Made by a program: the position numbers and the translations under genes | Shown here: positions 7,104 through 19,000 of the stretch, in pieces | How the letters are laid out: every line of letters starts with the position of its first letter | How positions within the stretch are numbered: the first letter of the stretch is position 1 | The notes under the pieces: generated by a model | Database searches by the model: none | Told to the model about the DNA's origin: nothing | Seen by the model: the letters and a program-made list of their open reading frames with translations, nothing else | Assembly: GCA_020080175.1 (NCBI GenBank) | Contig: JAGHQL010000091.1 | Location: forward strand, 39,570-103,569 | From: Glutinoglossum americanum | Taxonomy: Eukaryota > Ascomycota > Geoglossomycetes > Geoglossales > Geoglossaceae | DNA: 64,000 nt | Direction: 5' to 3'

Positions 7104-7587
7104 TTATCCCTGTGCTGCTGCAGCCCTCTCATCCTCCAGTTTCGCATAGAATTTGTCTCGGTGACGCACTGCAGGAACGTGGTAGCCTGTGAAGCCACAA
7201 TAAGCGTCTGTAACAACTCCCCAGATCCAATATCGGATAGTCCACTCACCGTACCTATTGAAATTTGTTAGCTCTGAAAGTCGAAGTAGCACGATTGGGA
7301 CTATACCAGAAGAAGTAGCCAAAGGAAATTCCGAGGCCTATATCAACGTTAGCTGGCTATCCGCGACGGTAGTTGTTTGCAATGCTGGGACGTAGGGCGT
7401 CGCAAATTCGCAACCTAGTGTCATATAGCCAGGGGGCGAGGCAAGGAATGCCACTGACTGACCGAATGCAACACTAAGGTCAAGAACGAGCCCTCTACGG
7501 AGCATCTACATACCCGTTAGTCGGATCGTAGCAACCCCCAAGGAGTTCTATGATATCACTTACACCAACGATAGGTTTGACAGGCAT
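7104..7587 (-). CDS. COX9: cytochrome c oxidase subunit VIIa (Cox9)
   Basis: Five exons on the complement: 7587-7564, 7505-7463, 7337-7307, 7254-7250 and 7186-7104. The joined 186 nt encode 61 aa, the usual fungal Cox9 length: MPVKPIVG, then MLRRGLVLDLSVAFG, then LGISFGYFFW, then YGYHVPAVRHRDKFYAKLE. One hydrophobic helix (about residues 13-33) would span the inner mitochondrial membrane; the basic C-terminal segment faces one side, as in yeast Cox9. The fourth exon is only 5 nt (GTACG). Without it the frame after ...FFW is lost, and the flanking introns (52 and 63 nt) have normal GTATAG and GTGAGT donors. The gene is divergent to TAF8, with 208 bp between start codons. Confidence 0.9.
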
Positions 7588-7795
7588 TGTGCGGTTTACC
7601 AACAATTTCGACAGAAAGAGACTTCTCGGAGTTGTGGTTTGAGCGGGAATGAAAATGGACTGATGGGAATGAAGCGGTTGATGTTCTTTGCCGAGAATGA
7701 ATAGCCCTGCCAAGACAATACCCGTCCAATCAGAAAATGCCTTCCCTCTCCTCTACATTCGCAACTGCGCACCCAGTCCCGACCTCTACGCGATA
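7588..7795. promoter_or_regulatory. bidirectional promoter, COX9 / TAF8
   Basis: 208 bp separate the two divergent start codons. An upstream ATG in frame with TAF8 occurs at 7688, but the TAF8 product reads naturally from 7796. Confidence 0.5.
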
Positions 7796-8928
7796 ATGGC
7801 GACAGTCCCGTCATCTTCATCTCTCAAGAGGTCGTCCCCCTTATCATCTTCGGACGCGTTGGCCTCAAAGAAACGCCGAAAGGTTTCAACTCATCACCAT
7901 TACCTTCACCACTCCGCGCGCTCACCCCTGACTCCCACAAACGCAGAAATTATTCACTCTCTACTTGAGCGGGCCATAACACTCATTCTAACCGCTGCGG
8001 GCTATAATGGCGCAAACCCCGATGCCCTCCAATTTTTCAGGGTTCATGTTGAAGAATGTGTGTATCCATTTCCCTTACTCTTCGATTGTGCGATTGGCTC
8101 TCTTGTGGCCTTCCTAAACATCAGTAGGCTAGTAGGCTAATGACAAGTCATATAGACATGATACACCAACTTTCTAACATCTCTATTTCTATGACCTCTA
8201 GTCGCCGGACACAGCCCATCCCACCAGACTTTGACTTCGTCCTCCGGAAACAGAATCTTTCTCTCTCATCATTAGAACCTCACCTCCAATCATTGGTGCC
8301 ACCTTCAATCTCTCAGCGATTTCTACCAACACCGCCCCCAGAAGATCCACCTAACCTGCCCCTATCCCCCGTCCTTGGCCCTGTTCTTAGCGGCGCACCC
8401 GATAAGCAAAGGGCTCCGTATGTTCCAACGCACTTCCCTTCATTTCCAAGTAAGCACACTTACAAGACCACTCCTGAGTTCACGGAAAGGGAGAGGGATC
8501 CGCGGAAGGTGCGAGAACGCGCAACCGAGGAGGGTAGACTTGGAGAAGAAGCTTTGCGGAGACTTCTTGGAGCAGCTGGTGGCGGCGGCCATGGTACGAG
8601 TGATAACTTCGGCCTCCGAAGCGCAAACCGGAGACAGAGAGACAGGATGTGGGAGCGGACCGTGGACGCACTTATAAAAGGGGTTGGAATCGCCAATCTT
8701 TCAAACGGGGAGTCGGGAATTGGGGCTTCGCAGGCCTCTGTGGTGGATAACAGCTTAGCTGTTGGGATAACGCAGGAATTTGGTGTAGTGGTAAATTCGG
8801 AGAAAGATTATTGGAGAAAGGGCGCCGTTTCAACGCAGGACAGTCTAAGAAGGCGACGGAATGGCACTGTCGTTATCGACAGCGGGGGCATCCCCACGAG
8901 CGGTGCAGGCCTTATCTCTGCTCCGTGA
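7796..8928 (+). CDS. TAF8: TFIID subunit TAF8
   Basis: Exons 7796-8057 and 8156-8928 with a 98-nt intron give 344 aa. The basic N-terminus (SKKRRKVSTHHH) resembles a nuclear localisation signal. A Bromo_TP-type histone fold follows (about residues 42-107: AEIIHSLLERAITLILTAAG... then IHQLSNISISMTSSRRTQPI). The TAF8 C-terminal motif lies at about 180-195 (HFPSFPSKHTYKTTPEF), followed by ERERDPRKVRERATEEGRL, the typical conserved block. TAF8 pairs with TAF10 through its histone fold and links TAF2 to the TFIID core for RNA polymerase II promoter recognition. An in-frame ATG at 7688 would add 36 residues and is less likely. Splicing after GAAGAAT restores HVEEYMIHQL. Confidence 0.92.
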
Positions 8929-16099: not shown

Positions 16100-19000
16100 G
16101 AATGGGCGGGCACTCTTGGCCGCCTGGTCTAGAACTACTTTTACTTGGGCATCCAGCAATACTAGCTAGCGTCTTATTTTTTTTTCTTCTTTCTGCTATC
16201 AGAGATAGGATTCAGTCTTTTTTTTCCACCCAACAAAGGACTTCCAACCCGGTAGCAACGCCGACCCACGTTTCGGCAAAGGTATCCACCCAAGCCTCTC
16301 TCTCTCATGCGTACTCACCCGAAAAAAAAAAAAAAAGGTTTAAATAATTAAAACCACAGGGGGGACATGGCAGGCCACACAAGCGCCAGAGAGGCATCAC
16401 AAACCAATCCCGCGGCGGGAAACCGGGGGGTTTTGTTTCCTTCTTTCTTGTTCGAAATGCGTAGGAAGGAGGGGGTTGTACGTGCAGGGGGGGGAAAAAC
16501 AGTCAGATTCTCATTACTACGGCGGGTTTTTGTGCGTGAGGCGCTATTAGTGAGAATTTTCTGACCAGCGGGGTGTGGCGCATTTTACTTGGTTTTTCGG
16601 GTTGGTTGGGCGGTGGTGGTGGGACGCGTCCCCCCCTCTGGGTCCCATATCGCGGGATGTGGTTGGTCGAGGGGGGTCGTATTTTCTTTGTTTTGTTTTA
16701 GACCGGGGGGGGGGGGGTTCTACACTTTTCTTTTCCTCGCCTTGTTTACTCACCGTGTAGGGTTGGCGAGGGAGAAGGAAAAACAAAATTTAAGTTGGCT
16801 TCGAGATGGGTTTGTCTAGGGAGTGTCTTACAAGGGGGTGAAAGTTGTGGACCTTGGTAGGGCAGATGGCGGGTTATCCCAGGCGTTGGCCATGAATTGT
16901 TATTGGTTTATTCGGTCTCTAGGCGTTATGGCAATATCTGACCCGTGCCTACTCTAATATATTTTGGTAACCACGTTTCAATGTGGGCGTTCGGCTTTTA
17001 GCCGTGGGTGTTTGGCTATATTCCCTGCATGTCTAGCAGCAGGGCATCGTATAGATGGCTGTCGCTATTTCCCTTTCCGTCAGCTTGTTGCGGTTGTACG
17101 AGTGGAACTCTCGTTAACCGCTCGCAGGTAACCCGCCGATGTTCTTTAACGAGTTACCTTTTGCTCGCGGGTGTAATAGAGACTTGCGTGATGTATGCAT
17201 GGACCCGGTCGAGTCTCCGGTTGGCTTTTCCTAATTTAGTTTGTATAGTAGCCCCACTGTGGACCAAGAAACATCCCAACCGCACTTTCTTGTGACCTGG
17301 CATGCTTTCTTAGTTATCATTCACCTAGCGGATAGTAACAAGGACATACGGGGTGGCATGTGTGCGCTGGATAGGATTGCGTCTCACGAGCATTCGTGTC
17401 TGTCGGCGAGCGCAATTGCTACGGTTATGGGGCTGCTCCCGCCGGATTCTGTGCACAGGAAGGATGGGATGACGTATGACGGTATGCTTATGCCTGTGAC
17501 TTAGTAGCCCCTGGTGGTTTATCCTCTCTATTGCAAGAGGCTGAGAAGTTTGTGCCTTCTGGTATCCCTGACGAAAACGAGATCGCGAGCTAGGAGGAAT
17601 AAGGTTAAGTAAAATATGATGGTGGAACCGCGGACCTTCGTATCTAAGGCACGTCAAACTCAACCTTTGCATCGCAGCCCCCACAGATGTTGGCTAGGGC
17701 GCGGAGCCGATTAGAACGGCGTGCCTAGGAAATCTCGTCCTTGGTGATAGCATCGAGAGAAGCTACGCTTCCGTGGATGAATTTTTGGACGCTAGTCAGA
17801 CGTTTCTTAGGCGCATGCGGGTGGGAAGAGAGCGAGTGGGAAACTGCTGACAGAGGGGATTCATATTTACGTTCGAAGGGCTTGGCGATGGTGAAGAGTG
17901 TAGCCCACTTGTTCCAGTAATGGCGGCCCTTTGGTGGCTTGCATGTCATGGATGCGATTTCCTGGGTGGGATTAGGAAGAATTCCCAGGTAATGCCTTCT
18001 CTGACCCCAACTTGGCACCCAAAGCGGATTCACCGGCACCACTCAACTTGCAGCTCTTAAATAGCGCGTTCTTCGGTGAGGGCTAGCCTAGGCATAAGCC
18101 GGTAGCTGGCCATAATCCTGGACGGGATGGAAAGTCAAAGACCGTGTTTGTGTCTCGGCGCTGTGCCTTCAATGGAACCGTTGAGAGGGTGTGGCTTCGC
18201 TGCTGGATTGTAGAAGGCAGAGTCAGGTTTTTCTTGGGTGTCCCTGGATGTATGTCATGTTTTCTCGAGTATTCTGGGGACATAGGTCAGACCTTCTTGA
18301 GTGTTCCTGGGACGTATCCGTGTTTTCCTGAGCAGCCCCGGGACGCATGTCATGTTTTTTTCCCCGTGTTTCCAGGACACGTCAGGTTTTCCTGAGTATT
18401 ACGGAGGCGTATGTCATGTTTTCTTGAGTAATATTTAGGGTAGTCAGCGACGGTCAGCTTTGGTGGGGTGAATCGGTATATCACACTAACAGCCCGGCTC
18501 TCACTCGCCGTCCTCACTGTCAGAGGACTATTTGATGAAGATGTCTAGACGACTTCGATTTAGGATACTATTCAAGGCAGAGGGGCTAATTCGGCCGTTC
18601 CGTTAGTCCTTGATCCCCTAGATCGGTGTTTTGTCTTTTGTTCCGTATTTCTTCTTACATATCCGTCCGTATAAGGGTTCCAACCACACAAACTCGTCCC
18701 CCAAGCCCTATTTTCCTAGCCCTACTTTCTTAAAAAGGCACGGGGGACCTGGCCATCTCCAACACTAACGCCTTGACTAGATGTTCATGGGTGGGAAGCT
18801 GAAGGCAAGCCCGACTACCTTCAGCTATATCGCGGGTCCGCGAACATTGGCGCTTGACATTCTGGTCGCGGAGGCTGCCAAATTCCCGCATGCGCTTGTT
18901 CGCCACAAGCTAGTCATAGCCTTCTACCCTCTCCCCGCGGGAGACCTTGGGATAGTCTGAGAGAGCACCATCGGGGTCATTTGGAGTTGCGTGAGCACAT

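Follow-up and report, generated by a model that had tools for sequence, protein, structure and literature searches.

A probable five-nucleotide microexon in the COX9 gene of the fungus Glutinoglossum americanum

Introduction

Tiny exons, down to a single nucleotide, have already been published from a fungus and from plants, and the candidate pentamer GTACG in COX9 described here is a further example. In Fusarium, the available text on CYP621A reports a 1-nt exon with RNA reads and 20 orthologues (PMC12940212). Like the COX9 pentamer, it is found in a filamentous fungus, is required for the frame within a conserved motif, lies inside an apparent over-long intron, and is flanked by AG and GT. 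The Fusarium exon, however, has a single nucleotide, belongs to a P450 gene and is backed by RNA, whereas the COX9 pentamer is a prediction from the DNA sequence. Among plants, a 1-nt exon was described in APC11 of Arabidopsis, for which the authors, in the accessible part of their report, favour intron definition plus stepwise removal (PMC4674806), and a 5-nt exon is included among the small plant microexons reported from rice (PMC8831610). These are tiny exons like that of COX9, but they come from plants and, in the same portions of the two reports, were confirmed by RT-PCR or cDNA.

Short exons of other kinds are also known in fungi. The Xlr2 gene of Trichoderma virens, likewise a filamentous fungus, has a regulated 20-nt microexon, which the excerpted report presents as a glucose-controlled switch (PMC11121469), whereas the COX9 pentamer shows no sign of regulation. 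The P450 genes of Phanerochaete chrysosporium combine microexons, the shortest exon in the available text being 6 bp, with introns of 45–55 bp (PMC1184071); these resemble COX9 as short fungal exons but occur in a gene family of a basidiomycete. The recursively spliced (RS) exons, as far as the available text on them goes (PMC6224609), share a further feature with the COX9 pentamer, the first bases of which recreate a donor after upstream splicing that rivals the true donor. The RS exons whose inclusion depends on the exon junction complex are from animals, while the recreated donor of COX9 is a candidate. In a search of the open literature that covered microexons in fungi, very small exons and the structure of COX9, none of the matches listed had a COX9 microexon in its title or at the start of its abstract.

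Results

The COX9 gene, which encodes a small protein of the respiratory chain (cytochrome c oxidase subunit 9 / VIIA), was analysed in a window, i.e. the whole stretch of 64,000 nucleotides of DNA under study, where it occupies the minus strand as five exons of 24, 43, 31, 5 and 83 nt with a predicted 61-residue product (MPVKPIVGMLRRGLVLDLSVAFGLGISFGYFFWYGYHVPAVRHRDKFYAKLEDERAAAAQG followed by a stop). Exon 1 (7587–7564, 24 nt) encodes MPVKPIVG as aligned to solved Cox9 chains and is followed by intron 1 (7563–7506, 58 nt, GTAAGT...ACTAAC...TAG), exon 2 (7505–7463, 43 nt), and intron 2 (7462–7338, 125 nt, GTCAGT...GCTAAC...TATAG). Exon 3 (7337–7307, 31 nt) encodes ...SFGYFFW and ends in phase 2 with the letters TTCTTCTG. 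Intron 3a (7306–7255, 52 nt, GTATAG...TTTCAATAG) has a weak donor CTG/GTATAG (the slash marks the splice site), a strong acceptor TTCAATAG/G and a branch-like GCTAAC at 14 nt before its end. It is followed by the putative microexon GTACG (7254–7250, 5 nt), intron 3b (7249–7187, 63 nt) with a strong donor ACG/GTGAGT and the acceptor CTTCACAG/G, and the last exon (7186–7104, 83 nt including the stop, GYHVPAVRHRDKFYAKLEDERAAAAQG). With its first base the pentamer completes a Trp codon, its next three bases encode Tyr, and its last base opens the conserved Gly codon; the spliced junction containing it is predicted to read TTCTGGTACGGCTACC. When it is left out, a single 120-nt gap remains and the join of 7307 to 7186 (TTCTGGCTACC) gives a frameshifted product, FFWLPRSC..., with a stop after 51 residues. 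A sequence-only reading of this DNA had placed the pentamer inside an otherwise single 120-nt intron, with a GCTAAC branch site in the first of the two resulting introns and a frameshift upon skipping; the pentamer was recovered letter for letter and the other two observations were reproduced. The long intron 2 also contains an AG/GT at 7414, but the donor there scored −4.81, and a composite intron 2 is therefore not supported. A reading frame on the plus strand (MATVPSSSSLKRSS..., starting near 7796) is oriented divergently to COX9, and the ~208 bases between the two (7588–7795) are a possible shared promoter.

The identity of the product was ascertained with phmmer against solved structures, where residues 1–57 aligned gapless to the best Cox9 chain with an E value of 1.1e-12. 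Nine hits were obtained at E up to 10, of which seven were Cox9 sequences, every one covered across the junction, and the other two (E of 0.79 and 1.5) were unrelated to Cox9; judged by these seven solved sequences, the five-exon product matches Cox9 along its full length. The best-matching chain 8c8q is presumably from fission yeast, and we take chain 6giq to be from baker's yeast. Gly occupies the junction position in all seven aligned homologues, which amount to about three separate proteins, as four of them represent a single yeast protein in different forms and two others resemble each other. The Pfam search of the product returned COX6C only, at 13.9 bits and below the cut-off of 22 bits, and no match was obtained when the raw frame, with X in place of stops, was scanned against Pfam, or when the window was searched with Rfam. 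A search of all 317 contigs of the assembly (25.8 Mb) found COX9 at one locus only, as three pieces, and a search for relatives among viral contigs found none. From the gene and its introns, we infer that the source of this COX9 is a fungus.

The requirement for the pentamer was examined by enumerating all splice paths with up to three GT/GC-AG introns of 35–250 nt each between 7337 and 7000. Out of the 175,202 paths, one intron set only within the coding part, 7306–7255 plus 7249–7187, restored the conserved W-aromatic-Gly-Tyr/Phe-His. No second junction giving FFWYGYHVP was found among these paths; outside them, an AG-CA intron (7302–7188) is the sole non-canonical single intron that would restore the motif with Gly. 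A product of equal length with Ser in place of Gly is possible without a microexon, through a single canonical intron of 115 nt (7301–7187), a near-equal alternative that the sequence-only reading had overlooked. The earlier claim that joining the exons needs the pentamer is therefore upheld for the Gly motif but not for a full-length frame as such. Taken as an internal microexon of 15 nt or less, the pentamer is bordered by GT-AG introns of ordinary size (52 and 63 nt) and is needed for the conserved protein as far as the Gly motif is concerned, the Ser version being available without it. The contribution of chance was estimated by shuffling the interior of the 115-nt intron while the first 6 bases, the last 3 bases and the preceding exon were held constant, and with them the CTG/GTATAG site. 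A microexon path keeping the motif arose in 20 of the 20,000 shuffles, and none had equally good splice scores. In a scan of 427,138 strand bases, an acceptor at least equal to that of 3a was followed within 1–15 nt by a donor at least equal to that of 3b once, at this locus. As the thresholds were derived from the COX9 site itself, this count indicates how rare such a pair is but has no value as a test. A sequencing slip was rejected as the cause of the pentamer, because one inserted or lost base cannot explain five missing bases. Of all the splicing patterns found, the one with the five-letter exon appears to agree best with the relatives.

The splice signals of the genome were learned by spliced alignment of conserved housekeeping proteins with an aligner that knew GT/GC and AG but no consensus. 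From 27 loci picked, 17 were aligned, the other ten being weak matches or additional parts of genes already represented, and these 17 yielded 58 introns. The 43 high-confidence introns, i.e. those flanked on either side by four or more identities in eight residues (locus L036 was dropped), were kept, and 15 stayed outside the main score matrix. The lengths of the 43 ranged from 49 to 137 nt with a median of 71 nt, and donor position 5 was G in 40 of them. One of the loci, L023 (C84 of the same genome, ~16381–17415), is a second protein phosphatase 1-like copy having two intron positions in common with the main copy L020. It carries GDIRGQ, GNFDGR and RGKHE versus GDIHGQ, GDYVDRG and RGNHE in L020, motifs that we take to have a metal-binding role in protein phosphatase 1, and on account of these changes L023 may be an inactive paralogue.

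Introns 3a and 3b both fall within the reference range, in agreement with the earlier view that 52 and 63 nt are normal for this genome. The 3b donor, also rightly described before as strong, scored 3.01 and equalled or exceeded 31 of the 43 reference donors; the 3a acceptor (2.44) did so for 41 and the 3b acceptor for 33 of the 43 reference acceptors. Three of the four sites flanking the microexon are thus good, whereas the 3a donor CTG/GTATAG (−1.17) lies below all 43 reference donors, and this weak donor is the main point against the microexon; the lowest reference donor, when references were left out of their own training, scored −1.5, i.e. under the 3a donor. Removal of 3a would recreate a donor CTG/GTACGG at the junction, which scored 2.06, at or above 19 of the 43 reference donors and higher than the 3a donor itself, while the true 3b donor 5 nt downstream scores higher still. 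The hexamer GTACGG serves as a donor in the Ypt1 gene of the same genome. No CTRAY branch motif was found in intron 3b, where the best match is GCTTAT, and 13 of the 43 reference introns are also without CTRAY near their end. The order of donors, 3b, recreated, 3a and that of the 115-nt intron, was unchanged when 57 introns, or 26 from the seven best-conserved genes, were used for training.

Among the explanations that dispense with the microexon, the single 115-nt GT-AG intron, by which exon 3 would extend to TATA and the product would read FFWYSYHVP in 61 residues (predicted junction TTCTGGTATAGCTACC), survives best but is very unlikely. It is canonical, in frame, of equal product length, has one intron fewer, and is the sole intron set giving the FFWYSYHVP product; the Ser version loses merely 2.9 bits against the best solved chain (50.8 to 47.9 bits in phmmer). 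Its donor ATA/GTCCCA, however, scored −6.48, below all 43 references and such that 97% of the GTs in the window are equal or better, and stayed the lowest of the four compared under two other training sets (−4.84 and −8.85). It also swaps out the Gly that the aligned homologues have in common and leaves the strong AG/GTACG/GTGAGT inside the intron as a coincidence. The signal-plus-length sums were −2.0 for the microexon and −10.09 for the 115-nt intron, a lead of 8.1 natural-log units in which the prior cost of the extra intron is not counted. That cost, put at ~5 units from a rough guess of one intron per ~200 coding bases, takes back part of the lead; conversely, the lead grows through the fit of the pentamer to the codons and through the chance AG and GT that the 115-nt intron would need at the right places. 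When a spliced aligner was run without splice scores, with an intron penalty of 6 and one Cox9 chain, it chose the 115-nt intron; without splice scores, the cost of an extra intron roughly cancels the gain from the Gly.

It is even less probable that 7249–7187 is normally retained, leaving one 52-nt intron. Because intron 3b is a multiple of three (63 nt) and free of in-frame stops, its retention would give an 82-residue protein with a 21-residue insert and not a truncated one; among the seven high-confidence reference introns of a length divisible by three, six contain a stop. The sum for this arrangement (−2.87) is close to that of the microexon with one intron fewer, and therefore only the protein decides between them. 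The insert splits the Cox9 match into two separate pieces and lowers the best-chain score from 50.8 to 33.4 bits (−17.4), and the segment is bounded by good splice sites at both ends. The splice signals thus favour the microexon strongly over the 115-nt intron and hardly over retention of 3b. With splice signals and protein conservation combined, the 5-nt microexon is supported as the best reading.

There is similarly little chance that the pentamer is skipped, or lost through recursive splicing, in much of the mRNA as a means of lowering Cox9 output: the recreated donor equals or exceeds 19 of the 43 reference donors, its hexamer is a donor in Ypt1, and such donors are described in the available text on animal exons (PMC6224609), but the higher-scoring true donor lies just 5 nt on and skipping would frameshift a gene with one locus in the genome search.

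Discussion

With high confidence, the features of the locus are best explained by a constitutive 5-nt exon GTACG between two short U2-type introns, which are probably recognised by intron definition and removed stepwise, 3b probably first. Splicing would be of the ordinary kind, one intron at a time. Since introns 3a and 3b are both short, each should be recognisable across itself, and since a spacing of 5 nt would hardly allow the acceptor and the donor to be occupied simultaneously, the two introns would be removed in succession. The strong donor of 3b and the weak donor of 3a suggest that the downstream intron 3b with its GTGAGT donor is probably removed first, and that the weak-donor 3a would then be removed against an exon of normal length, which would leave GTACG in the mRNA. 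If 3a were removed first, CTG/GTACGG would form at the junction, and splicing from this donor would remove GTACG and cause a frameshift. The sequence-only reading had regarded an exon of this size as near the limit for exon definition. However, the shortness of introns 3a and 3b is compatible with intron definition, so that a limit on exon definition is probably of little relevance here, and published exons reach 1 nt.

The pentamer was also compared with two known classes of nested splicing. The upstream junction recreates a donor (CTG/GTACGG, 2.06), as in RS exons. The arrangement does not fit a spliceosomal twin intron (stwintron), in which inner removal mends the outer signal and removal of both yields the frame, because splicing from the recreated donor would produce the frameshifted 7307–7186 join that lacks the pentamer. 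A more far-reaching proposal, in which GTACG would be an RS-type microexon included according to intron order and COX9 output would thereby be set by two splicing steps 5 nt apart, is doubtful. Under this proposal, removal of 3b first would lead to Cox9, whereas with 3a first the recreated CTG/GTACGG would compete and cause the frameshift or, alternatively, the exon junction complex would hide both donors and 3b would be retained in an 82-residue form. In human cells, the available text on the complex reports that some donors located on a junction or no more than 15 nt from one are repressed by it, and that its loss increased skipping in 26.8% of the RS exons tested and inclusion for 5.3% of hidden microexons (PMC6224609). 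A Mago homologue was found in the genome (two matches, best E 2.9e-17), and the exon junction complex may act in this way in this fungus. On intron order, the accessible part of a study in human cells gives 58% of SRRM4-dependent microexons as strongly downstream-intron-first and roughly equal shares of order for control microexons (PMC10250204); thus, downstream-first order is not a general rule.

If the constitutive microexon is true, it adds a 5-nt exon to a fungal housekeeping gene, and annotation programs may well overlook the COX9 pentamer or substitute the one-intron Ser version. The gene would also allow the handling of splice sites at a distance of 5 nt under intron definition to be tested cleanly, because a wrong intron order would leave distinct products.
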